In this document: piece after piece, positions 18,183 to 36,919 of the stretch
Layout: the number at the start of each line of letters is the position of its first letter
Position numbering within the stretch: the stretch's first letter is position 1
NCBI RefSeq assembly: GCF_015711645.1
Contig: NZ_JABTEX010000001.1
Coordinates: 1,488,001-1,552,000 of the forward strand
From: Planomonospora sp. ID82291
Lineage (GTDB): Bacteria > Actinomycetota > Actinomycetes > Streptosporangiales > Streptosporangiaceae
Length of the DNA stretch: 64,000 bases
Direction of reading: 5' to 3'
Program-made: the position numbers and the translations under genes
Notes under the pieces: model-generated
Databases searched by the model: none
The model's input: only the letters and a program-made list of their open reading frames with translations
What the model was told of the DNA's origin: nothing

Positions 18183-18308
18183 GGTGACCCCTTTCAAGGG
18201 TGATGGAAAAAGACCCCCGGGCCATCGGGTGATGGCGCATCACACGCATCAGACGCCACAGGGATAGAACGGGTTCACACGGCTTGCATCACGAAAAAGC
18301 CATGGGAG

Positions 18309-18343
18309 CCGGGCACGGCCGGCCGCCGGTCGGCCGTGCCCGG
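18309..18343 (-). terminator. Hairpin terminator after paralog 2
   Basis: Perfect 13-base arms CCGGGCACGGCCG and complement (18309-18321, 18331-18343) enclose a 9-base loop eight bases past the stop of the upstream paralog. On the minus strand it is followed, after several bases, by a short run of five T. It should separate the two paralogs into independent transcripts or reduce read-through. Confidence 0.75.
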
Positions 18344-18350
18344 GTCGATC

Positions 18351-21440: not shown

Positions 21441-21644
21441 TGCCCCTCCAGGGTAAAGAACACATAAACCCCCGACCGTCGGCAGATTATGACATGTCCC
21501 ATGCTTCTCCATACCGCCTGACCCGCACTGATCTCCCAGGTCAGCGGTGACCAGGCGGCTGGCAAGAAAGCCGCGTATCGGCTTCAATATGGACACGTTC
21601 CCGTGAACGGGTTCACCGCGGCGCCCGGAAGGATCTGGTCACAC
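21441..21644. promoter_or_regulatory. Divergent promoter region with three short dyads
   Basis: The gap between divergent paralog 2 and the polymerase-like gene contains three inverted repeats: GGTCA-GCGG-TGACC (21539-21552), AAGCCG-CGTAT-CGGCTT (21568-21584) and CGTTC-CCGT-GAACG (21596-21609). The stretch around 21480-21520 is less GC-rich than its surroundings. Any of these could be an operator controlling the exopolysaccharide cluster; no factor can be named. Confidence 0.4.
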
Positions 21645-23036
21645 ATGTCAGGCACGGCCGGGCCCCCGCCGCCCTCCCGGGCTCCCGCCGCTCCGCCGCC
21701 CCTCTCCCCGCTGACGGTGGAGGGCCGTCAGGCGCGCGGACTGCGGCCGGGCTGGCCGCTCAGCGTGATCTTCCTCGGCTTCCCCCTGTGGTGGGCGACC
21801 GGTTTCAGCGCGTTCATCTTCCTGATCATGAGCGTGCCGATGGTCCTGGAGCTGTGGCGCCGCGGCGCCGTCCGGGTCCCGCGCGGTTTCGCGATGTGGC
21901 TGCTCTTCCTGGTGTGGATGCTGCTCGGCGTCCTCATGCTCTTCGTCGACGCGCCCTACGGCGTCCCCGGCAGCGAACCGAACCGGATCCTGGTCTTCGC
22001 CTACCGCGCCGCCTGGTACTTCGCGATCACGGTCGTCCTGCTCTACGTCGGCAACCTCACGGAGAAGGAGCTGCCGACCGAGCGCGTCGTCCGGCTGCTG
22101 AGCTTCATGTTCGTGGTGACGGTGGGCGGCGGCCTGCTCGGGGTCGTCCTGCCCCACCTCGAATTCCCCTCCCTGCTGGAGCTGGCGCTCCCCAAGTCGC
22201 TCTCGCGCAACGACCTGGTGGCCAGCCTCATCCATCCGAAGGCCGCGACCAGCACCACGTTCCTCGGGTACGAGGAGTCCCGCCCCATCGCGCCGTTCGC
22301 CTACGCCAACTCCTGGGGGGCCAACCTCGCGCTCTTCCTGCCCTTCTTCCTCCTGGCCCACAGCCGCGGGAGCCGCCGGCGCCGCCTCCTCCTGCCGGTC
22401 GTCCTGCTCCTGTGCCTCTGGCCCGTGATCTACTCGCTCAACCGGGGCCTGTGGGGCGTGCTGGGGCTGGGCACCGCGTACATGACCTTCCGCTTCGCCC
22501 GGAAGGGCAACAAGTGGGCGCTGCGCCTGGCCGTGGGCGGCGCGGTGGCCCTCCTGCTCGTGTTCGCCGGCTCACCGCTCAGGACGCTGTTCGAGCAGCG
22601 GCTGGACACCCCGCACAGCAACGAGCGGCGCGGCCAGCTCTACGAGGTGACCGTGGCCAGCACCCTGATCGGATCGCCGGTCGTGGGCTTCGGCTCCACC
22701 CGCGACCTGCAGGGCAGTTTCGCCTCCGTGGGCGGCGGGGAACGGCCCGGCTGCAAGGGCTGCGGCGTCCCGCCCCTCGGCACCCAGGGCAGCCTCTGGT
22801 TCCTGATCTTCTCCCACGGGACGGTCGGCGCGGGACTGTTCCTGGGCTTCATGGTCCGCCGTTTCGCGGCGCACTGGCGCGATCCCGACCGCGTCGCCAT
22901 CGCGGGATGCTGCGTGCTGCTCAGTTTCGCGGTCTTCCTGCTCATCTACGATCTCCTCGACGTCCCGCTGTACACCGTCATGATCGCCCTTGCTCTGATG
23001 TGGCGACGCGAGCGAATGGAGGTGGCGGAGAGGTGA
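21645..23036 (+). CDS. O-antigen ligase / polymerase-like polytopic membrane protein
   Basis: This is a polysaccharide polymerase or ligase candidate of 463 residues. It has about ten to twelve hydrophobic helices, a Pro-rich cytoplasmic N-terminus and a large external loop (roughly residues 315 to 385) with HSNERRGQLYEV and SPVVGFGSTRDL. That loop pattern is typical of Wzy/WaaL-type O-antigen ligase-like proteins. The ATG at 21645 follows GGAAGGA; an upstream GTG at 21603 is in frame. It is the first gene of a tight plus-strand run, overlapping the next gene by four bases. Polymerase and ligase cannot be told apart from sequence. Confidence 0.8.
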   Translation: MSGTAGPPPPSRAPAAPPPLSPLTVEGRQARGLRPGWPLSVIFLGFPLWWATGFSAFIFLIMSVPMVLELWRRGAVRVPRGFAMWLLFLVWMLLGVLMLFVDAPYGVPGSEPNRILVFAYRAAWYFAITVVLLYVGNLTEKELPTERVVRLLSFMFVVTVGGGLLGVVLPHLEFPSLLELALPKSLSRNDLVASLIHPKAATSTTFLGYEESRPIAPFAYANSWGANLALFLPFFLLAHSRGSRRRRLLLPVVLLLCLWPVIYSLNRGLWGVLGLGTAYMTFRFARKGNKWALRLAVGGAVALLLVFAGSPLRTLFEQRLDTPHSNERRGQLYEVTVASTLIGSPVVGFGSTRDLQGSFASVGGGERPGCKGCGVPPLGTQGSLWFLIFSHGTVGAGLFLGFMVRRFAAHWRDPDRVAIAGCCVLLSFAVFLLIYDLLDVPLYTVMIALALMWRRERMEVAER

Positions 23037-24226
23037 GCGAATCCGCCTGGCTGGAAGCGGTCTCCAGGCTCTGGCCCGAGGCCGAGGTCAGCCGCTCGCC
23101 GCGCGGCCGGCGGCCGGGCCCGGCCGCCGGCGACGGGGTCCAGGAGTTCGTCTACCTCCCCGACGCCCGGCGGGCGCGCCTGCTCCTCCCCCTCGGCGCG
23201 CCCCGCGCCGCCGGTACGGCCCTGCGCCGCTACAGCCACGACCTGGGCGTCAAGGCCCGTCTCGGGCGCGGCCTGCTCTCCGCGGCCGTCCGGACCGGGC
23301 TGCCGCAGCGGTTCCTCCCCGACCGCGTGCACGTCCGCGCGCCCGGCGGGGAATCGGTCCAGCACCGGTTGTCGGAGATCCTCGGGCGGCGCGTGGTGGT
23401 CAGCGTCAGCATCGGGAACGCGCGCGCCAACCGCAAACCCGTCCTCCAGGCGATCACTCCGGCCGGCGAGTCCCTCGCGTTCGTGAAGGTGGGTGACACG
23501 GATGTGGCCCGCGACCTGATCCGCGCCGAGACGGCTGCGCTGGAGGAGCTCTCCGTCCTGCGGCCGCCCGGGATCCGCGTGCCGCGGGTGATCCACCACG
23601 AGGACTGGCGCGGTCTGGAACTGCTCGTGATGTCGGCGCTGCCCACGGGGGTGCGCCGCTGGCGACCGTCCGGCGCCGTGCCCGTCGCCGCGATGTCAGG
23701 GCTCTCCGCCGTCGCCGCCGAGGTCCGCCCGCTCGCCGGGAGCCCCTTCCTGGACCGCCTCCGGCGCGTGCCGGCGCAGGTCGGCGATCCCGCCGCCGCC
23801 GTACGGCTGGACGGCCTGCTCGACCACCTGGCGGAGCGGTACGGCGACCTCGACCTGCGCTTCGGCGCCTGGCACGGCGACTGGACGCCGTGGAACATGG
23901 CCTGGCGGCGCGACCTGGTCAACCTGTGGGACTGGGAGCGCTTCGCCCGGGACGCGCCCGCCGGTTTCGACCTGCTGCACTACACCCTCCAGCAGGTCCG
24001 GCCCACCACCTCGTGGACGGCGGACCTGGTCTGGTCCGACGGCGTGCTGGCGGCCCTGGAGCCGTTCGGCGTCGGCGGGAGGGCGGCCCGGGCCACCCTC
24101 GCCCTCTATCTGACCGAGCTGTACGCCCGATACGTCATCGCCGGCCAGGGGAGCATCGGCGAGCCGCTGCGGCCCCAGGCCGACGCCCTGCTCGACCTCC
24201 TCGACCGCAGCCGCTCCCGGATGTAA
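23033..24226 (+). CDS. Phosphotransferase-fold (aminoglycoside phosphotransferase-like) protein
   Basis: This 397-residue protein starts at a GTG overlapping the previous stop (GTGA). The C-terminal part shows a kinase-like fold: HGDWTPWNMAW near residue 282 is the catalytic HGD...N motif and NLWDWERFARD near 302 the metal-binding D-x-E-like segment. The N-terminal 100 residues are not recognisable. Placement in a polysaccharide operon suggests that the acceptor is a sugar or lipid-linked sugar rather than an antibiotic. The substrate is unknown. Confidence 0.75.
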   Translation: MSESAWLEAVSRLWPEAEVSRSPRGRRPGPAAGDGVQEFVYLPDARRARLLLPLGAPRAAGTALRRYSHDLGVKARLGRGLLSAAVRTGLPQRFLPDRVHVRAPGGESVQHRLSEILGRRVVVSVSIGNARANRKPVLQAITPAGESLAFVKVGDTDVARDLIRAETAALEELSVLRPPGIRVPRVIHHEDWRGLELLVMSALPTGVRRWRPSGAVPVAAMSGLSAVAAEVRPLAGSPFLDRLRRVPAQVGDPAAAVRLDGLLDHLAERYGDLDLRFGAWHGDWTPWNMAWRRDLVNLWDWERFARDAPAGFDLLHYTLQQVRPTTSWTADLVWSDGVLAALEPFGVGGRAARATLALYLTELYARYVIAGQGSIGEPLRPQADALLDLLDRSRSRM

Positions 24227-24237
24227 GGAAGGACGCC

Positions 24238-25101
24238 ATGCTCTCACGCCAGTCCGCGCCCCCCGTCGTCAAGCAGGCCGGGCGAGCGGTGACCCGCCAG
24301 GTGGGACGGCTCACCAGCGGGATGCGCATGCTGCCCGACTTCCTGCTCGTGGGCACGCAGCGCGGCGGCACCACGTCCCTGTGGCGGGCCCTGATCGCGC
24401 ACCCCTGCGTCGTGCCGCCGCTGTTCCACAAGGGCGTGCACTACTTCGACGTCGCCTACCCGCGGGGGATGAACTGGTACCGCGGGCACTTCCCGATCCG
24501 CTCGCTGGCGCACCGCCAGGCCGCGGGCGCGCCCGTCGTCACGGGCGAGTCCGCGGGCTACTACATGCACCACCCGCTCTCCGCCGGGCGGATCGCCGCC
24601 GACCTGCCCGGCGTCAAGCTGCTCGCCGTACTGCGGGACCCGGTGGAGCGCGCCTACTCCGCGCACCGGCACGAGCTCTCGCGCGGCTTCGAGACGGAGC
24701 CGTTCGAGCGCGCGATCGAACTGGAGGAGAGCCGGCTGGAGGGCGAGGTGGCGCGGATCACGGCGGACCCCGCCTACGTGAGCCACAGCCACCGCCACCA
24801 CTCCTACGTCGACAGGGGGCGGTACGCCGGCCAGCTCGACCGCCTGTTCGGGCTGTTCGGCAGGGAGCGCGTCCACGTCCTGTTCGCCGAGGACTTCTTC
24901 GCCGACCCGGCGGTCGAGTACGCCCGCATACTGGACTTCCTCGGCCTGCCCCGGTGGTCTCCGGAGGCGTTCGAGCGGCACAACGCCCGGCCGCGCTCTC
25001 CGATGCCCGAATCGCTCCGCACCGAACTGACCGACCGTTTCGCCCCCCACGACGAACGCCTCGCCGGGCTGCTCGGAGTCACCCCGCCATGGCGGAGATG
25101 A
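24238..25101 (+). CDS. Sulfotransferase (PAPS-dependent)
   Basis: Predicted to transfer sulfate from PAPS to a sugar. The 287-residue protein has the 5'-phosphosulfate loop FLLVGTQRGGTTSLWRAL near residue 36 and the 3'-phosphate motif LAVLRDPVERAYSAHRHEL near 130, in the order and spacing of the sulfotransferase family. The ATG at 24238 follows AAGGAAGGA. Located between a phosphotransferase-like gene and a chain-length protein, it implies that the exported polymer or glycolipid is sulfated. The final part SPMPESLRTELTDRFAPHDERL resembles NodH/heparan-type sulfotransferase C-termini. Confidence 0.88.
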   Translation: MLSRQSAPPVVKQAGRAVTRQVGRLTSGMRMLPDFLLVGTQRGGTTSLWRALIAHPCVVPPLFHKGVHYFDVAYPRGMNWYRGHFPIRSLAHRQAAGAPVVTGESAGYYMHHPLSAGRIAADLPGVKLLAVLRDPVERAYSAHRHELSRGFETEPFERAIELEESRLEGEVARITADPAYVSHSHRHHSYVDRGRYAGQLDRLFGLFGRERVHVLFAEDFFADPAVEYARILDFLGLPRWSPEAFERHNARPRSPMPESLRTELTDRFAPHDERLAGLLGVTPPWRR

Positions 25102-25928
25102 GCGGCCGTCCGGATCCGCTCCTGTCGGACTACGTCGGGTTCGCGCGCCGCAACCTCCTCGTCATAGGGATCATGACCATGCTGGGGCTGGCCGCCGGTG
25201 TGGTGCAGGCCCTGCTCGCGCCCGACACCTACACCGCCTCGGCCCAGGTGTTCGCCCCCGCGACGCCGGTGCATCCGGGACTCGAGCGCGAACCGGGCCA
25301 GCGCCTCCCCCGCGAGGTGACGGTGGACACCGAGACGCAGATCCTGCGCTCCAGCGCCGTGATCGGACGGGTCGCCACCGCCCTCGGCGTCAGCCCGGAG
25401 ACCGCCGCGGAGCGACTGGTCGTCACCGTGCCGCCGAACACCCGCGTGCTGACCGTCTCGGTGAGCGGCGCCACCCCCGAGAAGGCGCTCAACGGCGTCG
25501 GCGTGGCCACGGACGCCTACCTGGTCCTGCGCGCGCAGATCGTCGCGGGCGTCCGGCAACGGCACCTGGAGGCGCTGCAGTCGCGCATCGGCGTGCTGGA
25601 GTCCAGGCTGGCCTCCATGACGCAGGGTACGGTGGTCCGCAACACCAGGGCGCGCACCCACCGGCAGTCCCTCGTCCGTCAGATCAACGAGATGGAGCGG
25701 CAGGTCTCCGGGCTGCAGAAGCAGGAGACCAGCAGCGGCGAGATCGTCCGGGCGGCCGTCCGCCCCCGGCGGCCCGACCGGAACAACAACGAGGTCCCGC
25801 CGGTCTCCTACGCGGCGATCGGCCTGCTCGCCGGCATCGGCCTCGGTGTCCGCAGGGACGGCAGGGCGGGGCGCACCCGGCACGATGCGACACCACCCCA
25901 GCCGAGACCCAGGAGAACCGCGGCATGA
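25089..25928 (+). CDS. Wzz-type chain-length determinant / polysaccharide co-polymerase without kinase domain
   Basis: This 279-residue membrane protein has a Wzz N-terminus: a cytoplasmic stretch, a transmembrane helix near residues 20 to 42, and DTYTASAQVFAPA. A periplasmic-type helical region with QSRIGVLESRLASM follows, then a second helix (VSYAAIGLLAGIGLGV) near 238. It then stops in a short Arg-rich tail, with no BY-kinase domain. ATG 25089 has GGAG ten bases upstream; ATG 25098, overlapping the previous stop, is an alternative. The tail after the second helix is short and basic. It is probably one of two co-polymerase subunits in this cluster. Confidence 0.8.
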   Translation: MAEMSGRPDPLLSDYVGFARRNLLVIGIMTMLGLAAGVVQALLAPDTYTASAQVFAPATPVHPGLEREPGQRLPREVTVDTETQILRSSAVIGRVATALGVSPETAAERLVVTVPPNTRVLTVSVSGATPEKALNGVGVATDAYLVLRAQIVAGVRQRHLEALQSRIGVLESRLASMTQGTVVRNTRARTHRQSLVRQINEMERQVSGLQKQETSSGEIVRAAVRPRRPDRNNNEVPPVSYAAIGLLAGIGLGVRRDGRAGRTRHDATPPQPRPRRTAA

Positions 25929-26854
25929 CCGACATCCCCTCCCCAGCGCCGCCGACCGTCTCCGTCGTCGTCGCCACCCGCGACCGCCCTGTGCTGCTCG
26001 CCAAGGCGGTCGAGTCCATCATGGGCCAGGACTACGGGGGCGACATCGAATGCGTGATCGTCTACGACCGGGTCCCGCCGGACGCCTCGATGGAGCGCTC
26101 CGATCCGCACCGTTCGGTCGTGGTGGTCGGCAACGACCGCTCTCCGGGACTGGCGGGCGCGCGCAACAGCGGCGCGCTGCGCAGCCGCGGCGCGCTGCTG
26201 GCCTTCTGCGACGACGACGACGAGTGGCTGCCCGGCAAGCTCTCCGCCCAGGTCGCCCTCCTGGAGTCCCGCCGCGCCGACGTCGCGGTCTCGGGCATCT
26301 ACGTGCTCTTCGACGGCAGATCCACCGCCCGGGTCGCGGACGAGTCCTCGCTCACCGTCCTCGAACTCGCCCGCCGCCGGGTGATGGAGGCGCACCCGTC
26401 CACGGTGCTGGTCCGCCGGGAGGCGTTCTTCGACCGGATCGGACTGGTCGACGAGCGGATTCCGGGAGGCTACGGCGAGGACTACGACTGGATGCTCCGC
26501 GCCGCCGCGGCCGGTCCGATCGCCGCGGTGCAGGAGCCCCTGGTCCGCGTCCTGTGGGGTGCGCAGTCGTTCTTCCAGCGCGACTGGCGCATGGTCGTCG
26601 ACGGGCTGGAGTACCTCGCCGGCAAGCACGAGATCCTGCGCGCGGACCCGCGTGCCTCGGCCAAGCTCACCGGACGCCAGGCGTTCGCGCTCGCCGCGCT
26701 CGGCGAGCGCAGGCAGGCCCGCAGGCTGGCCTGGAGGACCTTCCGCAGCAACTGGCGGCAGCCCCGCTCATATCTGGTGCTGCTGATGACGGCGGGCCTG
26801 CTCCGGCCGGATTTCCTGCTCCGTACGGCCCACTCGCGGGGGCGGGGCATCTAG
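25925..26854 (+). CDS. Family 2 glycosyltransferase
   Basis: This is a cytoplasmic inverting glycosyltransferase of 309 residues. The GT-A fold start VSVVVATRDRPVLLAKAVES is at residues 12-31 and a DxD-type metal site is in AFCDDDDEWLPGK near 95. The acceptor-side motif YGEDYDWMLRAAAAG lies near 183. It overlaps the Wzz-like gene by four bases and is the last gene of this plus-strand unit, followed by a hairpin. It should add one sugar during repeat-unit assembly. Confidence 0.9.
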   Translation: MTDIPSPAPPTVSVVVATRDRPVLLAKAVESIMGQDYGGDIECVIVYDRVPPDASMERSDPHRSVVVVGNDRSPGLAGARNSGALRSRGALLAFCDDDDEWLPGKLSAQVALLESRRADVAVSGIYVLFDGRSTARVADESSLTVLELARRRVMEAHPSTVLVRREAFFDRIGLVDERIPGGYGEDYDWMLRAAAAGPIAAVQEPLVRVLWGAQSFFQRDWRMVVDGLEYLAGKHEILRADPRASAKLTGRQAFALAALGERRQARRLAWRTFRSNWRQPRSYLVLLMTAGLLRPDFLLRTAHSRGRGI

Positions 26855-26868
26855 CCGGGGAAGGAGGA

Positions 26869-26892
26869 CTCCGGCCCTCGGGAGGGCCGGAG
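26869..26892. terminator. Hairpin between convergent glycosyltransferase genes
   Basis: CTCCGGCCCTC (26869-26879) and its complement (26882-26892) form 11-base arms around a 2-base loop, 15 bases after the GT2 stop. It lies between convergent genes and is likely a bidirectional terminator. Confidence 0.65.
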
Positions 26893-26910
26893 CCGGGCAG
26901 GGCCGGAGCC

Positions 26911-26968
26911 GGGAAGGCCTGGTCCGGGGACCGGAGTCCGGGAAGGCCTGGTCCGGGGACCGGAGCTC
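26911..26968. repeat. Two 29-bp tandem repeats
   Basis: Two copies of a 29-base GC-rich unit (26911-26939, 26940-26968) differ only near the end. The second copy reaches into the stop codon of the downstream minus-strand gene. No function is visible. Confidence 0.85.
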
Positions 26969-27503
26969 AGGAGGGCCGGGTCCGGCCGGGCCTGGCCGTC
27001 AGCAGCTCGTCGACCAGGGCGCCGAACCGGCGGACGGTCGCGGCGATCGAGTCGGTCGCCGCCTCGGCGCGGAACGCCTCCGGGTCGTCCAGCGCCCGGT
27101 CGATCCGGTCGCGCAGCCCGGTCTCGTCCTGGGCGAGCGCGATGAGCCCGGAGGCGGACAGCCGGGCGCAGAACCGCTCCTGATGGTCGTCCACGTGTTC
27201 CCCCAGACCGGGTGAGCGCGGGACGACGACGGGGAGCAGACCGCGGCGGCGGCTCTCCGCGATGGTCGTCGGCCCCCCGTGACAGACGACCACCGAGGCC
27301 TGGGCCATGAGGGAGGTGAGTTCGTCGTGGCCGAGGTAGGCGTGGCCTTCCGCGACGCGGGGAGCGGGCGAGTTGCCGTACTGCACGACGCACCTGACGT
27401 CGCGTCCGCGGGCGTCCGCCGCCCAGGCGTCCGCCCACGCGACCAGTCGGGCGAAGGGGTGGTGGTCGGTCCCCACCGAGACGAAGACGAGCCGGCCGGT
27501 CAC
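26967..27503 (-). CDS. Alg13/EpsF-like glycosyltransferase catalytic subunit (GT28 C-terminal domain)
   Basis: This 178-residue protein is the UDP-sugar-binding half of a split glycosyltransferase. It starts at a GTG overlapping the previous stop (GTGA) with VTGRLVFVSVGTDHHPFARL. It carries the nucleotide-sugar signature VVCHGGPTTIAESRRRGLL near residue 74 and PRSPGLGEHVDDHQ near 98. It has no membrane segment and should rely on the neighbouring Alg14-like protein for membrane docking. The pair is analogous to Alg13/Alg14 and to bacterial PssE/PssD, which add the second sugar to a lipid carrier. Confidence 0.88.
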   Translation of the reverse strand: MTGRLVFVSVGTDHHPFARLVAWADAWAADARGRDVRCVVQYGNSPAPRVAEGHAYLGHDELTSLMAQASVVVCHGGPTTIAESRRRGLLPVVVPRSPGLGEHVDDHQERFCARLSASGLIALAQDETGLRDRIDRALDDPEAFRAEAATDSIAATVRRFGALVDELLTARPGRTRPS

Positions 27504-28015
27504 AGCAGCCCTCCGATGACCGTGGCCCCGGGGTAGAAGCGACGCTGCTCCTCCCACTGCACGAGGAAGAGGGTCGTGAAGGGGACACAGAGCCGGCCGG
27601 TCAACGTCGGGCTGTCGAGCCGGTCGTACACCTCGATATAAACCGTGGGGATACGTAAAATTTTGGCAAGAACGAAAAAGGGGAATGCAAGTGCGGCACC
27701 GGTTGAAACGATCAAATCCGGACGCTTCCGCCGGAGCATCCGCCACGCGAGGACGAAGTTCCTCAGCAGGTTCGGCACGTTGCGGGTCGTGGGATGATGT
27801 CCCCAGACGATCTGTTCACCGCTGAGCCGCGAAGACGCGTCGTCGGTCCGGAAGGTGACCCAGGTCCGGTCCCACTCGCGCCACCACGGTTCGAGCGCGT
27901 CCAACTGGGCCAGGTGGCCCCCGCTGGACGCCACCAGCAGGACACTTCTCGCTGCCGTCACCTTGGCCCGTTCCACACCGTGAGGTTGATGTTCGTTCAG
28001 GTAAGAGTAGAACAT
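27500..28015 (-). CDS. Alg14/PssD-like membrane partner of split glycosyltransferase
   Basis: This 171-residue protein is the membrane-anchoring and acceptor-binding half of the split enzyme. The family motif LLVASSGGHLAQLDAL lies near residue 26, and a hydrophobic segment DLIVSTGAALAFPFFVLAKI near 100. Starts are uncertain: ATG 28015 is used, while downstream GTG codons give a shorter protein beginning just before the SSGGH motif. A stretch at about 27640-27720 inside the gene is much richer in A and T than the rest of the window. The gene overlaps its partner by four bases and is divergent from the large Wzz-like gene. Confidence 0.85.
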   Translation of the reverse strand: MFYSYLNEHQPHGVERAKVTAARSVLLVASSGGHLAQLDALEPWWREWDRTWVTFRTDDASSRLSGEQIVWGHHPTTRNVPNLLRNFVLAWRMLRRKRPDLIVSTGAALAFPFFVLAKILRIPTVYIEVYDRLDSPTLTGRLCVPFTTLFLVQWEEQRRFYPGATVIGGLL

Positions 28016-28125
28016 CAGCCATATTCCGGTAAACTTCGGGCGAGTTGGTGGCGTGAAGGTTCATCTGGGGTCGAAGCAGCGTGCGGGGCTCACCCAGCCG
28101 GCACAGATCGATTAGGGGGACCCGC

Positions 28126-29946
28126 GTGGCGGGAGGTCAGGCCACTTCGTTCCGTTCCCAGCTTCTCGCGCAGACACTCCGTTACCGCAAGGCGCTGATC
28201 ATCGTCTGCGCCCTCCTCGGCGCCCTCCTCGGCGCGGGGGCGGCCCAGCTGATGCCGCAGAGCTACAAGGCCTCCACGACCGTGCTCATCATCCCGCTCA
28301 GCGGCAACCCCTACTCCCCCGAGGGCCGGGGCGACGACCTGATCAATCTCGCGAGCGAGACCCAGCTGGTCACCGCCGACACGGTCATGAACCGGGTGGC
28401 CGGCGCCCTCGGCGACGCCGTCGACCGGGCCGCCATCCCCGACCAGGTGACGGTCGAGGTCCCCGCCAACACCCAGACCCTCCTGATCACCTTCACCGCG
28501 AGCGATCCGGTCACCGCGAGCAAAGGCGCGGCCGCGTTCGCCAACAGCTACCTCACGTATCGCAGGAGCCGCTCAGAGTCGATCATCGACGGCAAGATCA
28601 AACAGGTGGAGGAGCAGTCGGCCAAGGTCGACGCCAGCCTTCGCAAGGCCACGAACGACCTGTCCTCCGACAAGCTCTCATCGGCCCGGCGCACCTATCT
28701 GACGCAGCGGGTGACGCAGTTCACCAACCAGCTCGCCGTCCTGGAGGAACAGGCCAACGACCTCGCCAGCACCCCGATCTTCCCCGGGCAGATCATCTCC
28801 TCCGCTCCCGCCTCCAGCGGATCGAGCCTGCTCGGCACACCCGAGCTCGGGGTCGCCGGTCTGCTGGCGGGCCTGCTCGCCGGGCTGGGGCTGGGCATGC
28901 TGCGCGAGCACGGCGACGACCGCCTGCGCGACGCCGAGTCGGTGGAGCGGTACGGCGTGCCGGTCCTGGCCGTCAGGAGCATGCCCGCGCAGCCCTACGA
29001 GCCGCTGACGGACCCGCAGGACGACGAGGATCTCCGCAAGCTCCGGGTGGCGGTGCTGACCAGGATCACCGACATGCCCGCCTCGATGCTCATCGCCGGC
29101 GCCTCCGGAGGCGACCACGCCGCGCGGCTGAGCGCCGACCTGGCCCTCGCCCTGGGCGCGGCCGGAACCGAGACGATCCTCATCGACGCCGACCACACCG
29201 CGACGCCCAGCGCGTCCGCGCTGTTCGGGTCGACCGTCCAGCGAGGACTGACCGACGTCCTGCTCGATCACGACGATCCCCAGTCCCTGCTGCGCCAGAC
29301 CGGCCCGCAGACCCACCTGCTGCCGCAGGGCACGGACCTCAAGAACGCCTCCAGCCACTTCCTCGGCCGCGGGCTCTTCCACACGGTGAACGTGTTCCGG
29401 CACAGCGCCGACCTCGTCATCGTCACCGGTCCTTCGCTCGACAACCCCGACGGCCAGGCCCTGAACATGGTCTCCTACGCCACCCTGCTCGTGATCACCG
29501 CCGGCGTCACGCGGCGGCGGGACGTGCGAGCCGCCTACGCCCAGGCCGAGCACGCCGAAGCGAAGATCATCGGTGCGGTCGTGCTGACCCCGCCGAGCCG
29601 GCGCCGGCTGCGCGCGGCGGCCGGCCGCGAGGTCCCGCGGACCGTCGCGGAGCCGATCATGGTGGACTCCTCATGGGCCGCCGCGGAGCCGATCATGGTG
29701 GAGTCCTCGGTCATGTCCGCGATCACCGCGGCGGAGCCCCGGGACCGGGACGACGAGGCCGAGGTCGTCGTAGAGGACCCGGAGGTCGCCGAGGACGCCG
29801 AGGACGCCGTGGAGGAGACCGCGATCGTGGTGCTCGACCTGCCCGGTTCCGGCCCCGAACCCAAGCCGGTGACCGACGAGGCCCCGACGATGGCCTTCCC
29901 CCGGATCAGCACCGACACGTCCGCCAAAACCGGCCGCTCGAAATGA
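28126..29946 (+). CDS. Wzz/Wzc-like chain-length protein with degenerate BY-kinase domain
   Basis: This 606-residue protein has a Wzz module with helices near residues 22 to 45 and 238 to 262, and a cytoplasmic domain related to bacterial tyrosine autokinases. The P-loop position reads MLIAGASGGDHAARL and lacks the GK-S/T of Walker A, while the Walker A' strand TILIDADHTATPSASALF near 350 is retained. The tail (after about 500) is Asp/Glu-rich and has no tyrosine cluster; it contains the repeated block AEPIMV. It is therefore likely a non-catalytic co-polymerase. The GTG at 28126 follows AGGGGGA. It is the first gene of a plus-strand run to about 35.4 kb. Confidence 0.85.
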   Translation: MAGGQATSFRSQLLAQTLRYRKALIIVCALLGALLGAGAAQLMPQSYKASTTVLIIPLSGNPYSPEGRGDDLINLASETQLVTADTVMNRVAGALGDAVDRAAIPDQVTVEVPANTQTLLITFTASDPVTASKGAAAFANSYLTYRRSRSESIIDGKIKQVEEQSAKVDASLRKATNDLSSDKLSSARRTYLTQRVTQFTNQLAVLEEQANDLASTPIFPGQIISSAPASSGSSLLGTPELGVAGLLAGLLAGLGLGMLREHGDDRLRDAESVERYGVPVLAVRSMPAQPYEPLTDPQDDEDLRKLRVAVLTRITDMPASMLIAGASGGDHAARLSADLALALGAAGTETILIDADHTATPSASALFGSTVQRGLTDVLLDHDDPQSLLRQTGPQTHLLPQGTDLKNASSHFLGRGLFHTVNVFRHSADLVIVTGPSLDNPDGQALNMVSYATLLVITAGVTRRRDVRAAYAQAEHAEAKIIGAVVLTPPSRRRLRAAAGREVPRTVAEPIMVDSSWAAAEPIMVESSVMSAITAAEPRDRDDEAEVVVEDPEVAEDAEDAVEETAIVVLDLPGSGPEPKPVTDEAPTMAFPRISTDTSAKTGRSK

Positions 29947-31484
29947 GCCAGCCCGGCAACCTGGCCTCGATGGCCAGAGGCGGCTCCGTCAACCTCATCG
30001 GCGCCGCGGTGACGGGAACGTCCCAGTTCGCCCTCGTCCTCCTGGTCGCCACCCTGCACTCCGCGGAGCTCAGCGGCGCGTTCTTCGCCGCCACCTCGGT
30101 CTTCCTCATCCTGGGCGCGCTGTGCGAACTGGGCTGCGACGTGGGCCTGCTGCGCTGGGTGCCCCGCCATCTCGCGCTCGGCCGCACCCGCGACGCGGCC
30201 CGCTGCGTGGACGCGGCGCTCGTCCCGGTGGCCGCCGTCTCGGTTCTCGTCGCGGCGGCGCTGTTCGCCTTCGCCCCCTTCCTGGCCGCCGTGCTCGACG
30301 GCGCCCGGACCGGCCAGACGGCGGCCATGCTGCGGGCGCTGGCGGTCTTCCTGCCCGTCATGGCGGCGGCCAACGTGCTGCTGGCGGCCACCCGCGCCCA
30401 CGGGAAGATGCGGCCCACCGTGCTGATCGACCGGATCGGCCGGCCGGTGGCGCAGATCGGCGGCGTCGCGCTGACCCTGGTCCTCGGCGACGGGGCGGCG
30501 CTGCTCACCGCCATGTGGGCCCTGCCGTACCTGCCCGCGCTCGCGGCCGCCGCGTGGTGGTACCGCGGCCTGCGCCGGGCGGTCCCGCCCCAGGAGGAGC
30601 CCCCGGCGGCGGTCCGGGCGCTGGCCGCCGAGTACTGGCGCTTCACCGCGCTGCGGGCGCTGGCCAGGGTCTGCCAGACCGCGCTCCAGCGGGCCGACAT
30701 CGTGATGGTCGCCGCTCTCAGCTCGCCCCGTGACGCGGCGGTCTACACGGTCGCCAGCCGCTTCGTGGTCTTCGGCCAGCTCGGCACCCAGGCCGTGCAG
30801 CAGATCATGCAGCCCGTCGTGAGCCGCCAGCTGGCGCTGGACGACCGGGCGGGAGCCCACCAGACGTTCTCCGTGGCCACGGTGTGGACCGTTCTCCTGA
30901 CCTGGCCGGTCTACGTGACCACCGCCGCCGCCGCGTCCCTGTACCTGTCGCTCTTCGCCGAGGAGTACCACGCGGCGGGGGTCCTGCCCGTGCTGGTCCT
31001 CTCCCTGGCGATGATGTTCGCCACGGCCGCGGGCCCCGTCGACACGATGCTGCTGATGAGCGGCCGGAGCGGCCTGAGCCTGCTGAACACCGCCGCCGCG
31101 CTCGCGATCGACGTGGTCCTCGGGCTGGTGCTCATCCCGAGGTTCGGCGTCCTCGGCGCCGCCGTCAACTGGGCGATCTCCATCGTGCTCCGCAACGTGC
31201 TCTCGTTCGCCCAGGTCAAGGCGGCGACGGGGATGACGCCGCTGAGCCGCGGCCTCGCCTGGGCGACCGGCGCGACGGTCCTCTCCTTCGGAGGACCGCT
31301 GCTCCTCCTGCGCTTCCTCGATGCTTCGACACCTGCGCTCTGCGCCGGCTTGGTCGCGTGCGCCACGATTTATGTCATCCTGCTGTGGAAAATCCGTGAA
31401 CGTGTCTCCCTCACCGCGCTGTCCGCCCTGCTTCGGCGGCGCACCCGCGGGGTCGCCGCGTCTCCGGTGATCGAGGAGGTCTGA
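29943..31484 (+). CDS. Polysaccharide flippase (Wzx / MATE-like exporter)
   Basis: This 513-residue membrane protein with about 12 to 14 helices should flip lipid-linked repeat units across the membrane. The N-terminus GGSVNLIGAAVTGTSQFALVLLVA and the alternation of helices with short basic loops resemble polysaccharide biosynthesis flippases. Its ATG overlaps the previous stop (ATGA). The gene is between a co-polymerase and a methyltransferase gene, as expected for a Wzx/Wzy-dependent pathway. Confidence 0.88.
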   Translation: MSQPGNLASMARGGSVNLIGAAVTGTSQFALVLLVATLHSAELSGAFFAATSVFLILGALCELGCDVGLLRWVPRHLALGRTRDAARCVDAALVPVAAVSVLVAAALFAFAPFLAAVLDGARTGQTAAMLRALAVFLPVMAAANVLLAATRAHGKMRPTVLIDRIGRPVAQIGGVALTLVLGDGAALLTAMWALPYLPALAAAAWWYRGLRRAVPPQEEPPAAVRALAAEYWRFTALRALARVCQTALQRADIVMVAALSSPRDAAVYTVASRFVVFGQLGTQAVQQIMQPVVSRQLALDDRAGAHQTFSVATVWTVLLTWPVYVTTAAAASLYLSLFAEEYHAAGVLPVLVLSLAMMFATAAGPVDTMLLMSGRSGLSLLNTAAALAIDVVLGLVLIPRFGVLGAAVNWAISIVLRNVLSFAQVKAATGMTPLSRGLAWATGATVLSFGGPLLLLRFLDASTPALCAGLVACATIYVILLWKIRERVSLTALSALLRRRTRGVAASPVIEEV

Positions 31485-32785
31485 TGTCGGCTCTGGCCAA
31501 CCTTCGTGCGGTACGGCGGCGCTCACGTGTCGCACTCCGCCGGCTGACGGGGCCGTCGCCGTCGCGCACGCTCGTGTCGGCGGCGAAGTCCCTGCCGATC
31601 CCGGCGAAGGTGCGGGTCCAGCTGTCCACCGCCTTCCTGCGCCGGCGCGGGTCGGTCACCGTCCCCGTCGACCGGTTGCTGCTCGGCGCGCAGAACGGGT
31701 GGACCGCCACCGAGTTCAGCGCCCGGACCGGGGACATGCTCTGGTGCTCCACCCCGGTGTCCGAAGGTCCCCACGTCGCGCTGCTGCGCCTGGCCGACGG
31801 CCGCGAACCGACCGACGCGGAGATCCTCGACAGCCCGTACGGCGCCCTGGCCCGCCGTGCCGTCGCCACCGGCGGCCGGTACTTCTGGGCGACGGACGAC
31901 GCGGGCATCGTGGAGACGGCGCGGGCCTTCCTCGACCGGCACCGCGGAGGCGCGCCGCAGGCGTCCCGGACCTACCAGAGCGGGCCGGACGACCCCATCC
32001 TCGTCGCACCGGTCAAGTGGTCCGGTTACTACCAGGTCCTGGACGGCCACCACCGGCTGGCCAGCGCCGTGCACCGGGGCGAGCGCAGCGCCGAGGTGAC
32101 CGTCAAGCGGTTCCCGGTGACGACCCCGCTCCAGGACCACCTGCTGCGGATGAGCTGGCTCGACGGCACCCGGGAGCTGTACCAGCCGATCGACGCCCCC
32201 GAGCTCGCCGAGAGCTGGCCGACCGTGCGCAAGTGCACCGACCGGCGCGACAAGATGCGCGAGTTCCTGGGGGATCCCGCGGGGCTGAGCTACCTGGACG
32301 TGGCGAGCTGCTACGGCTGGTTCGTCTCCGAGATGGGCGGACTCGGCATGGACGCCCACGGGATCGAGCGCGACCCGCTGGCCGTACCCCTCGGACAGGC
32401 CGTCTACGGCCTGCCCGCAGGGGCGATCGAGACCGGTGACTGCGTGGAGGTCCTGGGCGCGGCCGACCGGACCTGGGACGTGGTCTCCTGCTTCAGCCTC
32501 CTGCACCACTTCGTGCTCGGCCGCGCCTCGGTCGGCCCGGAGGAACTGCTCAGGCTGCTCGACCGGGTCACCGGCCGGGTGCTGTTCCTCGACACCGGCC
32601 AGGAGAACGAGGCCTGGTTCCGGACCTCGCTCGCGGGCTGGAACCCCGCCATGATCGCCGACTTCCTCCGGCGCACCACCACCTTCTCGAAGATCGTCGA
32701 TCTGGGCCCGGACGACGACGCCGTGCCCCCGTACGCCGACAACTACCGGCGCCACCTGTTCGCCTGCGTCCGGGAGGACCGATGA
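31484..32785 (+). CDS. ParB-like nuclease-fold / SAM-methyltransferase fusion protein
   Basis: This 433-residue protein has two recognisable parts. Near residue 185 is [18 protein letters not shown], the DGHHR motif of ParB/Srx-like domains. From about 265 a class I methyltransferase fold is seen: [32 protein letters not shown] (SAM loop and acidic residue), then [15 protein letters not shown]. It may methylate a sugar or lipid of the polymer, with the ParB-like part sensing a nucleotide or substrate; neither is proved. The start overlaps the flippase stop and follows GAGGAGG. The 3' end overlaps the RCC1 gene by four bases. Confidence 0.75.
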
Positions 32786-34095
32786 CGTCCCGCCATATCC
32801 TGCTCGGCGGAGCCGCGGCCCTCCTGCTGCTGCTGTCGGCCTCCTGCGCCGCCTCCGAGACCGCGCGCCCCGCGGCCTCGGAGGATTCCGGGACCCCGTC
32901 GTCCGCGGTGACCGGCGGCGTCTGGGCCACCGGATGGAACGCCGACGGGCAGCTCGGCCACCCCACCGAGGAGATCTCGACCGCTCTGGGGCAGGTCCGG
33001 GGCCTCGACGGCGGGCCCGCGCTCGACCGGATCACCGCGGTGGCCGCCGGCGGCCGGCACTCCCTCGCGCTCCTCGACGACGGCTCCGTGGTCGCCTGGG
33101 GGGCCAACGACTTCGGCCAGCTCGGCGACGGCACCACCACCGGCCGGTCGGCGCCGGTGGCCGTACGCGCCCCGGACGGGCGGGACGGCGAGCTGAGGAA
33201 GGTCGTCGCGCTCTCCGCCAACAGCGACTTCTCCATGGCGCTGCTCGCCGACGGGAAGGTCGTCACCTGGGGCAAGGGCGACGCGGGACAGCGCGGCATC
33301 GGCAGCGAGACCGCACCGCTGACGCCCACCACGGTCCTCGCCCCGGACGGTTCGGGCCCGCTGACCGGGGTCACCGCGATCGCCGCGGACGGACGGACCG
33401 AGCTGGTGCTGCTCGAGGACGGCTCGCTGCTGTCCTGGGGCGCGAACAAGTACGGCATGGTCGGGGACGGCACCACCGAGAACCGCTCGCTCCCCGTCCC
33501 CGTGCGCGGCCTGGACGGCGCCGAGCGGCTGACCGGGGCGACGGCCGTCGCCATGGGCGGGCAGCACGGACTGGCGCTCCTGCAGGACGGCTCGGTCGCC
33601 GCCTGGGGGTACAACGACATGGGCCAGCTCGGCACCGGTGACCACAGGACCCGCATGACCCCGGTGCTGGTCTCCGGTCCCGGCGGTCGCGCCCCGCTGA
33701 GGGGGGTCATCGCGATCTCCTCCGCCGAGAAGCACAACTTCGCCATCCTGAGGGACCACACCGTCGTCTCGTGGGGCAACAACACCGCGGGTCAGCTCGG
33801 TGACAACACCGTGGAACGCCGCACGACGCCCGTTCAGGTCGTCGGCGCCAACGGGGAGGTGCTCCGCGCGGTCCGCAGCGTCTTCGCCGGTGAGGCGTAC
33901 GGCGTGGCGCTCCTCGACGACGACACCATCCGGACCTGGGGGGCGAACGGCAAGGGCCAGCTCGGTTCCGGGGACCGCAATCCCCGCAGCCGCTCGGGCC
34001 CGATCGTCCTGGCCGGCGGCGAGCAGCCGGGCCGGGCCGTCACCGCCGCCGCGGGCGAGCGCCATCTGCTCCTGGTGCTGCAGCAGGCCTACTGA
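32782..34095 (+). CDS. Secreted RCC1-repeat lipoprotein
   Basis: This exported 437-residue protein has a lipoprotein-like signal ending LLLLLSASC. About seven repeats of the RCC1/BNR-type unit follow, each with W-G-x-N...GQLG (for example [40 protein letters not shown]), predicting a seven-bladed propeller. Typical eukaryotic RCC1 is a nuclear exchange factor; bacterial forms are usually surface or secreted proteins of unknown partner. Its ATGA overlap with the methyltransferase gene ties it to the exopolysaccharide unit, so it may bind the polymer. Confidence 0.85.
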
Positions 34096-34110
34096 CAGGA
34101 GGGGCTGAGA

Positions 34111-35442
34111 ATGAGACGTACCGGGTTCGTCGCACTGGCCACGATGGCCGCGATCACGTTCTCCGCCCTCCCCTCCGCCGCGGAGTCCGCCCGGACCGGG
34201 GACGGCCTCCCCGCCGGCCGGGAGGCCGTCCCCGAAGTCGCGGAGCCCGCCCCGGCGTGGGGCCCCGATCCGGCATGGGAGCCCGATCCGGCATGGGAGC
34301 CCGGGACCGCGGAACCGGGAGTCACGGAACCCGGGAGCACGGAACCCGGGAGCACGGAACCCGGAGTCACGGAACCCGGGAGCACGGAGCCCACCGTGGA
34401 TTCCGCTCCGGAACCGGGGCCCTTACCCGAGCCCGTACCGGAGCGGTTCCGCATCCGGGAGCGGAGACTCATGTTCGGCGCGGTCGGACAGTACCGGGAG
34501 GAGATCCTCGACCGGGAACGGGAGCTGGGGCAGCCGCTGGAGGCGGTCCGCGTCTTCAAACGCTGGGACGAGCCCGTCTTCAACGAGCACCAGGTCTGGG
34601 CGCGCGACACCGGCCACACGATCTTCGTCTCCGTCAAGTCGCGCCGCAAGGACGGCAGCGACATCCGCTGGCGCGACATCGCCGACGCGCGACCCGGCAG
34701 CGAACTGCACGCGGACATCGTGCGCCAGGCGCAGGAGCTGCGGGACTTCGGCGCGGTGGTCTACTTCACCTTCAACCACGAGCCGGAGGCGAAGGGCTCC
34801 CGCGCCATGGGCGAAGGGGCGGACTTCGTCGACGCCTGGCGGAAGATCGTCGACGTCCACTGGGCGCACGGCGTCCGCCTGGCCCGCTACGTCTGGACGG
34901 TCACCCCGGTCGCCTTCGACCGCACCGATCACACCTCCGCCGAGCTGTTCTACCCGGGCGACGACTACGTCGACCACATCGCCGCGGACGCCTACAACTT
35001 CTACAACTGCAGCAATCCCGAGGGGAAGTGGCTCGGCTTCGCCGAGGTCGTCGAGGGCCACCGGAGATTCGGCCTGCGCCACCCCGACAAAGGCCTCATG
35101 CTTCTGGAGTGGGGCTCCGTGGAGGACCCGGCGCAGCCGGGCCGGCGGGCCGCGTGGCTCGCCGACGCGGCCCGGACCCTGCTGAGCCCCGGCTACGAGC
35201 AGTACCGCGCGGTCCTGGCCTGGGACGCGCGCAACCTGGACGAGGAGTGGGCCTGCGACTTCGACTACGCCTCGACCGCCGACGCTCTGGCGGCATGGCG
35301 GGCGATGGGGAACCACGCGGCCTTCGGCGCCGGGGAGCCGTGCGAGATCGGCGACTGCGTGCGCCTGACGGACTTCTTCGCCCCGTCCCGCCAGGCCGTG
35401 CGGAGCCGTCCCGCGCGCCGCGGGAGACGGCGGGCGCGCTGA
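34111..35442 (+). CDS. Secreted GH26-like glycoside hydrolase
   Basis: This is a predicted extracellular endo-glycanase of 443 residues. A signal peptide (MRRTGFVALATMAAITFSALPSAA) is followed by a low-complexity Pro/Glu/Gly/Thr region with 5-residue repeats to about residue 110, then a TIM-barrel-like domain. YFTFNHEPEAKGSR near 217 would supply the acid/base glutamate and LMLLEWGSVEDP near 330 the nucleophile, as in family GH26. Basic residues dominate the last 20 positions. It is the last plus-strand gene of the exopolysaccharide cluster and may trim or release the polymer. Confidence 0.8.
   Translation: MRRTGFVALATMAAITFSALPSAAESARTGDGLPAGREAVPEVAEPAPAWGPDPAWEPDPAWEPGTAEPGVTEPGSTEPGSTEPGVTEPGSTEPTVDSAPEPGPLPEPVPERFRIRERRLMFGAVGQYREEILDRERELGQPLEAVRVFKRWDEPVFNEHQVWARDTGHTIFVSVKSRRKDGSDIRWRDIADARPGSELHADIVRQAQELRDFGAVVYFTFNHEPEAKGSRAMGEGADFVDAWRKIVDVHWAHGVRLARYVWTVTPVAFDRTDHTSAELFYPGDDYVDHIAADAYNFYNCSNPEGKWLGFAEVVEGHRRFGLRHPDKGLMLLEWGSVEDPAQPGRRAAWLADAARTLLSPGYEQYRAVLAWDARNLDEEWACDFDYASTADALAAWRAMGNHAAFGAGEPCEIGDCVRLTDFFAPSRQAVRSRPARRGRRRAR
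34312..34386 (+). repeat. Five 15-bp tandem repeats in hydrolase linker
   Basis: Five near-identical 15-base units encode TEPGS/TEPGV repeats in the linker between signal peptide and catalytic domain. Units differ at one or two bases only. The length is a multiple of three, so the frame is kept. Confidence 0.9.
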
Positions 35443-35445
35443 GCG

Positions 35446-35462
35446 CCCGCCTCCGCGGCGGG
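35446..35462. terminator. Short hairpin between convergent genes
   Basis: CCCGCC-TCCGC-GGCGGG lies in the 28-base gap between convergent stop codons. The arms are only six bases, so termination here is plausible but weakly supported. Confidence 0.4.
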
Positions 35463-35470
35463 ACGTCCGG

Positions 35471-36919
35471 TCAGTAGGCCCCGACCCCCCGGATGACCGC
35501 GGACCAGGTCTTCCACAGGATCTGCAGGTCGAGCACGAGGGACCAGTTCTCGACGTATCTGAGGTCCAGCCTCACCGACTCCTCCCAGGTCAGATCGGAG
35601 CGGCCGCTCACCTGCCACAGACCGGTCATGCCGGGGTTGACGAGCAGGCGCCGGCGCACGTCGTCACCGTACTGGGCCACCTCCTCGGGAAGCGGCGGGC
35701 GCGGTCCGACCAGGGACATGTCACCCCGCAGCACGTTCACCAGCTGCGGCAGCTCGTCGAGCGAGTACCGGCGCAGCCAGGCGCCGACGGGGGTGATCCT
35801 TGGATCGTTCCTAATCTTGAAAAGCACCCCCTCCCCCTCGTTGAGGCCGACCAGCCGGGCCTTGACCTGCTCGGCCTCCGGGATCATGGTGCGGAACTTC
35901 AGCACCGTGAACTCCTGGCCGCCCTTGCCGACCCTGGCCTGCCGGAACAGGACCGGGCCGCGGCTGGACACCTTGATGAGGACCGCCACGACGAGGAGGA
36001 GGGGCAGCAGCACCAGCAGCGCCAGCACCGCGCTGACCCTGTCGAAGGCCCCCTTGACCAGCTGGCGGACGCCGTCGAGATCGGGGTGGGCGACGTGCAG
36101 CAGCGGGAGCCCCGCGACGGGGCGGATGTTGATGCGCGGTCCGGCGACCTCCATGAGCGCCGAGGCGACGTAGAGCTCGGTGTCGTCCTCCTCCAGCCGC
36201 CACGCCAGCCGCCGGAGGGCGATTCCGTCGAACTCGGGGCAGGAGAGCACCGCGACCGTGTCCGCCCGGACCTCCCGGACGGTCTCGGGCACGGTGGAGA
36301 AGTCTCCGAGGACGGGGAAACCGTCGAACTGCTGCGGCCGGTCGGAGTCCTTCGAGGGCACGCACGCGGCGACGATCTTCATGCCGTGGTGCGGTTTGCG
36401 GCTCAGCTGCGCGTGGAGTTCGAGGACCGACGTCCAGTGCCCGACCACCACGACCCGGCGCATACAGGCTCCCTCGTAACGGCGGCGGTGCAGTCGCTGG
36501 CGCAGGCCGTACCGGATGAGGACGTTCAGGAAGCCCGCGAGCGGGATTCCGACCACCACATAGCCTCGGGCGATCGGCGTCTGCGTCGCGTAGGCGATGA
36601 TGGCCACCGCCGAGGCGACGCCCAGCGCGGCCCGCAGCACCTTGTGGTACTCCTCGGGTCCCTCGCCGAGGTAACGCTCGTCGTAGACCCCCACGGCGGC
36701 CATGACCAGCGGCCAGACGGCCACCAGCAGGACGGCCAGGGCGACCTCCAGGTAGGTGAGGTAGCCCAGGAACCACCGCGCCGTGACGACGCCGCTCAAG
36801 GAGACGACCGCGCAGGCGACGTCGGCGAAGACCGCTGTCAGGACGTACGACCGCACCCATTCGGCGGGACCCGTGCTCGGCCACGAGGCATCGACTTTTT
36901 CACCAGCAACAACGCTCAT
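35471..36919 (-). CDS. Undecaprenyl-phosphate sugar-1-phosphate transferase (exopolysaccharide initiating enzyme)
   Basis: This enzyme starts polymer synthesis by loading a sugar-phosphate onto undecaprenyl phosphate. The 482-residue protein (ATG 36919, MSVVAGEKVDASWPS) has about four N-terminal helices and a CoA-binding-like middle domain (RRVVVVGHW near 152). A further membrane helix near 295 leads into the bacterial sugar transferase domain to the end, with VLKFRTM, RRYSLDELPQLVNVLRGDMS, VGPRPPLPEEV and NPGMTGLWQVSGRSD. This WbaP/WcaJ-like order is complete. It is convergent with the hydrolase gene and has its own promoter in the 36.9-37.3 kb gap. Confidence 0.93.
   Translation of the reverse strand: MSVVAGEKVDASWPSTGPAEWVRSYVLTAVFADVACAVVSLSGVVTARWFLGYLTYLEVALAVLLVAVWPLVMAAVGVYDERYLGEGPEEYHKVLRAALGVASAVAIIAYATQTPIARGYVVVGIPLAGFLNVLIRYGLRQRLHRRRYEGACMRRVVVVGHWTSVLELHAQLSRKPHHGMKIVAACVPSKDSDRPQQFDGFPVLGDFSTVPETVREVRADTVAVLSCPEFDGIALRRLAWRLEEDDTELYVASALMEVAGPRINIRPVAGLPLLHVAHPDLDGVRQLVKGAFDRVSAVLALLVLLPLLLVVAVLIKVSSRGPVLFRQARVGKGGQEFTVLKFRTMIPEAEQVKARLVGLNEGEGVLFKIRNDPRITPVGAWLRRYSLDELPQLVNVLRGDMSLVGPRPPLPEEVAQYGDDVRRRLLVNPGMTGLWQVSGRSDLTWEESVRLDLRYVENWSLVLDLQILWKTWSAVIRGVGAY

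Follow-up and report, generated by a model that had tools for sequence, protein, structure and literature searches.

A Wzx/Wzy-type gene cluster of Planomonospora with a heparan sulfate-type sulfotransferase: likely synthesis of a sulfated surface polysaccharide

The closest described counterpart of the gene cluster analysed here, which lies in a 64,000-nucleotide stretch of Planomonospora sp. ID82291 (contig NZ_JABTEX010000001.1, positions 1,488,001 to 1,552,000; hereafter the window), is the wps-1 system of Actinoplanes missouriensis. According to the available part of the report on this system, wps-1 encodes a GT2 glycosyltransferase, two sulfotransferases, WecG, a GH26 protein, a methyltransferase, Wzx, a kinase-like protein, Wzy and Wzz, and deletion of wpsG, wpsH, wpsI, wpsJ or wpsK gives rise to squashed sporangia (PMC13390465). 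Loss of wpsB, the gene for the other sulfotransferase, leaves sporangia that look normal and release fewer spores. Mutation of the neighbouring gene AMIS_7390, a member of the sulfate adenylyltransferase/adenosine 5'-phosphosulfate (APS) kinase family, causes a severe sporangium defect, a phenotype described as unexpected by the authors, who set it next to sulfur amino acids (PMC13390465). According to the authors, sulfated polysaccharide in A. missouriensis is still to be verified (PMC13390465), and this 2026 paper raises the question whether actinomycetes make such polymers. The initial annotation of the window had remarked that sulfated exopolysaccharides are rarely described in actinomycetes, in line with our literature search, which returned this single paper, predicting the same kind of product without chemistry. 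The sole match on Planomonospora polysaccharide names the genus once, and the 12 titles listed on sulfated polysaccharides from Streptomyces or Nocardiopsis contain nothing on this system. In the open-access literature searched, the system appears to be known only as a prediction and from mutant phenotypes.

Planomonospora is a genus of soil bacteria, and the window is contained in a 7.58 Mb actinobacterial genome. In the available part of one source, the genus is listed among the actinomycetes whose sporangia release spores that swim (PMC12691653). Quite probably the cluster directs Wzx/Wzy-dependent synthesis of a surface polysaccharide that is sulfated and possibly also phosphorylated and methylated, and its homology to wps-1 suggests a likely role of the polymer in the sporangium or spore matrix. 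Judged from sequences and structural models, a sulfated polysaccharide is the best-supported reading because of the operon-like setting of the sulfotransferase gene, its conservation across genera, the heparan sulfate-type fold of its predicted product and the position of many of its relatives beside genes for the synthesis of 3'-phosphoadenosine 5'-phosphosulfate (PAPS); sulfation of the polymer is likely, though unproven.

That the locus is a polysaccharide cluster is secure. All genes named in the initial annotation are present, and its boundaries coincide with the first and last genes, the cluster extending from the ATG of the Wzy gene at 21645 (plus strand) to that of the priming transferase gene at 36919 (minus strand). 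The plus-strand genes for Wzy, the kinase P0002, the sulfotransferase P0003, Wzz and the GT2 enzyme are followed on the minus strand by those for PssE and PssD, which form a split PssD/PssE-type pair, and then by genes for a Wzz protein with a kinase-like domain, Wzx, a methyltransferase, an RCC1 lipoprotein and a GH26 enzyme, and by the opposite-facing gene for the priming transferase (minus strand). Several adjacent genes overlap by a few bases in an operon-like manner, and the P0003 gene, which overlaps or directly adjoins those for the kinase and Wzz, looks like part of one operon with Wzy. Family models match the priming transferase, Wzx, a chain-length protein and the glycosyltransferases. 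The Wzy protein P0001 has no polymerase match in Pfam and was assigned by hydropathy and by its 38% identity to WpsJ, itself only predicted. The methyltransferase P0010 is present as annotated, although its match falls under the Pfam cut-off; its homologues are 64-73% identical in A-type loci where they were called, and 96% in P. parontospora. A tyrosine-kinase role was considered for P0008 and rejected, as the GxxxxGK[ST] motif with the Walker A lysine is absent from this protein and from 34 of 34 homologues longer than 450 residues. The original claim that the cluster encodes all steps of a Wzx/Wzy pathway is borne out for priming, assembly, flipping and length control and, with the putative Wzy, for polymerisation; genes for nucleotide-sugar and PAPS synthesis were not found among its genes.

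P0003 is a PAPS-type sulfotransferase, as initially proposed. It has no hydrophobic segment in a simple hydropathy count and is therefore probably cytoplasmic. Among solved structures, its best sequence matches are 3rnl, a bacterial sulfotransferase (3e-20), and the 3-O-sulfotransferases of human heparan sulfate synthesis (7e-16 and weaker), and a Foldseek search with its structural model (predicted local distance difference test score, pLDDT, 91) retrieved 3rnl as well as heparan sulfate 3-O- and N-sulfotransferases at template modelling (TM) scores of 0.66-0.70. The model gave a TM score of 0.48 with the curacin sulfotransferase and of 0.31-0.33 with the glycopeptide enzyme Teg12. Since the superfamily includes glycopeptide-type and polyketide-type members, P0003 could conceivably tailor a secondary metabolite, its polysaccharide neighbours being coincidental. 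We regard this alternative as highly improbable and reject it on the fold comparison: P0003 is nearest to polysaccharide sulfotransferases in both fold and sequence, it keeps an adjoining kinase, with Wzy near, across genera, and no polyketide synthase or non-ribosomal peptide synthetase was found among 19 window proteins scanned from the cluster and its surroundings. A KGVH motif is common to P0003 and the putative WpsH. As a separate observation, one related locus (L045, G011:C118) contains one kinase gene followed by three tandem P0003-type sulfotransferase genes, at least one of which encodes KEVH in place of KGVH.

The sulfated-polysaccharide reading gains further weight from relatives of the cluster. 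The best named match of the sulfotransferase, at 97% identity, comes from P. parontospora JCM 3093, in which the gene order from the PKD protein to GH26 is unchanged (81-97% identity) and the PKD protein also adjoins Wzy; Nonomuraea cavernae shows the same cluster order at 52-80% identity. Because the order is kept in both species, the gene set is not a product of chance. Two sets of related loci were counted apart, with four loci probably common to both. Counts of loci refer to the 79 in which the sulfotransferase was called, taken from the best 80 of at least 552 confirmed sulfotransferase relatives; many of the fetched stretches end at contig ends or at the 10 kb flank. The kinase gene directly adjoins the sulfotransferase gene in 74 of these 79 loci, and the fetched stretches of 77 loci contain Wzy and those of 69 Wzx; a Wzz-type gene was found in 73, homologues of the PKD protein in 60, and SatK or CysN/CysD in 26. 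GH26 was found in 49, a count that may be low because the reference set lacked the GH26 protein of the second cluster described below. Beyond these loci, 179 of 200 Micromonosporaceae genomes have a relative of the sulfotransferase at E<=1e-40. In another genus, we also noted a locus (L058, G004:C64) whose EamA and GntR genes resemble those flanking the window cluster and accompany a divergent cluster with a priming transferase, a kinase, PssD/E, a PKD protein, a 41%-identical sulfotransferase, Wzx and Wzy; given these genes, it looks like a standing polysaccharide locus.

The sole APS kinase of the genome (1e-56) is encoded on a different contig, C8, between pth and mfd. It belongs to a paralogous cluster that comprises a priming transferase, a CysQ-like protein, CysD, CysN, three sulfotransferases, a GT2 enzyme, WecG, a kinase, Wzy, Wzz, GH26, a TauE-type transporter and the APS kinase itself, and whose sulfotransferase and Wzy are 57% and 41% identical to those of the window. 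CysD and CysN score above their model cut-offs, and the CysQ-like protein (7e-30) below its own. At its N-terminus, the APS kinase (L038:17019-18314) bears a PUA-like part of ATP sulfurylase, and Pfam gives no match to the catalytic domain of that enzyme. A loss of GH26 from this cluster was considered and rejected, as the gene is present and overlaps the next one. In a tree of 84 sulfotransferases, P0003 pairs with its P. parontospora homologue (support 100/99), N. cavernae joins them more weakly (94/49), and a split (98/94) places this group with the Thermomonosporaceae and apart from the C8 copy, which falls inside a Streptosporangiaceae group (100/98). The two clusters are therefore either old paralogues, or that of the window was acquired. 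The PAPS-bearing paralogue, the conserved kinase partner and the link to sporangia are additions to what had been annotated before.

Physical linkage between sulfotransferase and PAPS genes recurs among relatives. APS kinase is present in all of 49 whole genomes, as one strong copy in 47. In 34 genomes it lies within 20 kb of the sulfotransferase gene; three others have it far off but on the same contig, and 12 have it on another contig. The Thermomonosporaceae with a window-type cluster are linked in 20 of 23 cases, the other three having the genes on different contigs, and in Actinomadura flavalba a window-type cluster is situated inside the pth-mfd locus, flanked by SatK and, at the opposite end, by CysN/CysD/CysQ. 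Because this gene type often adjoins the cluster in related genomes, we read AMIS_7390 as a PAPS source. PAPS supply would explain its unexpected phenotype, so that the linkage provides a simple account of that result and renders the question of sulfated polysaccharides in actinomycetes directly testable. CysH, encoded elsewhere in the genome, contains CC and CxxC motifs, whose cysteines mark APS reductases, some of which take both substrates. It scores 230 against an APS-reductase model (cut-off 235) and 172 against one PAPS-reductase model (cut-off 254). These motifs and scores suggest that PAPS is not needed for cysteine, and PAPS would thus probably, though not certainly, be made for the sulfotransferases alone.

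The C8 cluster may in turn depend on the window cluster. Its sulfotransferase genes ST2 and ST3 are 25 bases apart (L038:10394-10420), with no Wzx between them; a Wzx gene stands at this site in 11 of 11 named Streptosporangiaceae C8-type loci, one of them from a metagenome bin, and in N. cavernae. Genome searches with the window Wzx and with a Planobispora C8-type Wzx find only P0009. As the sole Wzx of its family found, P0009 may therefore be needed for the C8 polymer, unless a flippase of another family serves it. N. cavernae has both clusters, each with a Wzx, which shows that the presence of two clusters does not in general lead to the loss of Wzx.

The kinase P0002 is a conserved partner of the sulfotransferase. 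Its phosphotransferase fold, as initially annotated, is shown by structure prediction: no Pfam or NCBIfam model matches at E<=0.01 and a sequence search of the PDB was also without result, and the model (pLDDT 91.9) matches fructosamine-3-kinase (FN3K) and aminoglycoside 3'-phosphotransferase (APH(3')) structures in Foldseek at 1.6e-7 to 4e-6. Residues K152, E166, D283, N288 and D300 are invariant in all 39 sequences of a curated alignment; among 76 automatic gene calls, a looser set, 66 contain both WHGDxxxxN and DWE and 10 contain one of them. P0002 thus seems to be an active kinase of small molecules or sugars, and our guess is that it acts on a sugar of the polymer repeat. Its relatives occur in 22 of 40 genomes, including its own. 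The cluster also points to a kinase, so far uncharacterised, that widely accompanies glycosaminoglycan-type sulfotransferases. It is tempting to extend this view to a scheme, in our judgement a rather unlikely one, in which the two clusters are interdependent, with the window cluster taking PAPS from C8 and C8 using P0009, and in which P0002 phosphorylates the lipid-linked repeat sugar as a checkpoint for sulfation or flipping. P0002 would then be a bacterial counterpart of the sugar kinases in animal glycosaminoglycan synthesis.

Several observations weigh against a sulfated polymer with a role in sporangia. Sulfate in the polymer is a prediction in Planomonospora and A. missouriensis alike. 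The PAPS genes of the genome lie outside the window cluster and on a different contig, and only SatK, but not CysD, CysN or CysQ, was seen in 33 kb around the putative wps-1. Linkage to APS kinase was found in none of eight Micromonospora genomes (different contigs in seven, where assembly breaks are possible, and 915 kb in one) and in neither of two Actinopolymorpha genomes (0.6 and 0.8 Mb apart). CysH scores above the cut-offs of two further models, which are named for PAPS reductase (phosphoadenylyl-sulfate reductase) or CysH. Relatives of the sulfotransferase also occur in Nocardioides, which is not known to us as a sporangium former. Finally, Gly66 of P0003 takes the position of the catalytic glutamate of heparan sulfate 3-O-sulfotransferases, which acts as the base in the heparan enzymes. 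KG[VI] occupies this site in 82 of 84 relatives, one having glutamate and one falling outside the pattern, in a set biased to KG because one of its two scan patterns contained KGVH; in a similarity-found set, which leaves aside the two L045 copies with KEVH or alike, the count is 16 of 16.

The missing glutamate and the lack of PAPS genes in the window cluster both favour an alternative in which a polysaccharide is indeed made but P0003 has lost its sulfate transfer, or sulfates a lipid or protein, such that the polymer stays unsulfated. We consider this unlikely, since P0003 retains the PAPS-binding loops, 45 positions are invariant across 43 of 43 aligned relatives, and both WpsH and the adjoining APS-kinase-family gene are required for normal sporangia in the available account of A. 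missouriensis (PMC13390465). With the heparan sulfate-type glutamate replaced by Gly66, another residue must serve as the base, perhaps His68, which follows two residues later and is kept in 78 of the 84 relatives. In the part of a review available, histidine and glutamate are both given as possible bases of sulfotransferases (PMC11625862).

The analysis shows which genes are present, their motifs and predicted folds, how far they are conserved and how they are linked; from these we infer sulfation of the polymer, the acceptor, the order of steps and the biological role. P0013 would prime undecaprenyl phosphate, and the GT2 enzyme and the PssD/PssE pair would extend the primed lipid. Still inside the cell, the soluble P0003 may then add sulfate from PAPS to the lipid-linked repeat, with the sugar-kinase-like P0002 at its side, before Wzx flips the repeat, Wzy joins the repeats and the Wzz proteins fix the length. 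PAPS would be supplied in trans by CysD/CysN and the APS kinase of the C8 cluster, whose CysQ-like enzyme would clear 3'-phosphoadenosine 5'-phosphate. The GH26 enzyme, the RCC1 lipoprotein and the PKD proteins presumably act outside the cell.

By analogy with wps-1, a role of the sulfated polysaccharide in the sporangium or spore is plausible. It might instead be an anionic, teichuronic-like glycopolymer linked to the wall of vegetative cells, a variant that we rate as possible while short of probable. It would fit the relatives in genera such as Nocardioides and the other glycan loci of the genome, but the homologous A. missouriensis cluster acts in sporangium formation and its mutants, in the text available, grow normally (PMC13390465).

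The coordinates of all features are given in Table 1, together with those of a tandem pair of similar secreted proteins, each of about 1000 residues, with propeller and PKD domains (15093-21596).

Table 1. Features of the cluster and of the adjoining tandem genes, with positions in the window
Feature	Position	Strand	Evidence
Secreted beta-propeller/PKD protein, tandem copy 2	15093..18182	-	PKD_4 3e-42, DUF5122
Secreted beta-propeller/PKD protein, tandem copy 1	18351..21356 (start uncertain, up to 21596)	-	PKD_4 1e-41
Wzy-type polymerase P0001	21645..23036	+	Many hydrophobic segments; 38% to WpsJ
APH/FN3K-fold kinase P0002	23033..24226	+	Model pLDDT 91.9, Foldseek, invariant catalytic residues
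PAPS-type sulfotransferase P0003	24238..25101	+	PF00685 1.5e-10, PF13469 5e-10; Foldseek
Wzz chain-length protein P0004	25098..25928	+	PF02706 4e-8
GT2 glycosyltransferase P0005	25925..26854	+	PF00535 2.7e-19
PssE/Alg13-like glycosyltransferase half P0006	26967..27503	-	PF04101 (Glyco_tran_28_C) 7e-13; PssE model 7e-17, below cut-off
PssD/Alg14-like glycosyltransferase half P0007	27500..28015	-	NF041549 PssD 115.5 bits (cut-off 110); Alg14 2e-11
Wzz with degenerate BY-kinase domain P0008	28126..29946	+	PF02706 8e-7; TIGR01007 5e-14, below cut-off
Wzx flippase P0009	29943..31484	+	MatE 9e-13
S-adenosylmethionine (SAM) methyltransferase P0010	31484..32785	+	Methyltransf_23 0.0016, below cut-off; conserved homologues
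RCC1-repeat lipoprotein P0011	32782..34095	+	RCC1 6e-63; lipobox-like N-terminus read from sequence
Secreted GH26-like glycoside hydrolase P0012	34111..35442	+	PF02156 1.4e-5; HEPE and EWG motifs
Priming polyprenyl-phosphate sugar transferase P0013	35471..36919	-	PF02397 (Bac_transf) 1.6e-69; TIGR03025 above cut-off

Elsewhere in the genome, contig C7 holds three tandem sulfotransferase genes (L041:6222-19900) by genes for a TagF-like protein, glycosyltransferases and NeuB-, PseG- and PseF-like proteins, all names other than sulfotransferase being read from sequence; this locus perhaps directs synthesis of a sulfated nonulosonic-acid wall polymer. On the same contig, a further sulfotransferase gene (L042:8945-9835) adjoins one for a GT4-like glycosyltransferase, the latter likewise named from sequence.

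Set against known enzymes, P0003 shares its fold and PAPS loops with heparan sulfate 3-O- and N-sulfotransferases (PDB 1t8t, 6xkg, 1nst), from which it differs in the glycine at the catalytic glutamate position and in overall sequence (about 20-24% identity in structural alignments). P0002 likewise resembles fructosamine-3-kinase and APH(3') (PDB 3jr1, 4ej7) in fold and kinase motifs, but is only about 13-15% identical to them, at a query TM score of about 0.4, and has an extra N-terminal region of about 110 residues in its model. Among known pathways, the synechan cluster of Synechocystis provides a precedent for bacterial biosynthesis of a sulfated exopolysaccharide, the available text mentioning a sulfotransferase and Wzy; this cluster is cyanobacterial and is likened here by description only (PMC8205485). 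In Vibrio sp. KMM 8419, the gene cluster for a sulfated capsule contains cysC, cysN and cysD together with sulfotransferase genes, a pairing that its authors, in the part available, term a 'hallmark', whereas the capsule itself is made by an ABC-transporter (Kps) route in a Gram-negative bacterium (PMC11641403). The nearest system remains wps-1, at whose putative locus the identities to window proteins are 50% for WpsH, 39% for WpsI, 38% for WpsJ, 40% for WpsG and 41% for WpsA. Both wps-1 (WpsA-K and AMIS_7390) and the window cluster contain an adjoining sulfotransferase-kinase-Wzy trio as well as Wzz- and GH26-type proteins. WecG, the second sulfotransferase WpsB, DUF4262 and an APS-kinase gene are features of wps-1 that are not among the genes of the window cluster, which in turn has its own priming transferase, a PssD/PssE pair, an RCC1 lipoprotein and tandem PKD proteins. 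In content, the C8 cluster, with its WecG, further sulfotransferases and APS kinase, is the closer of the two to wps-1.

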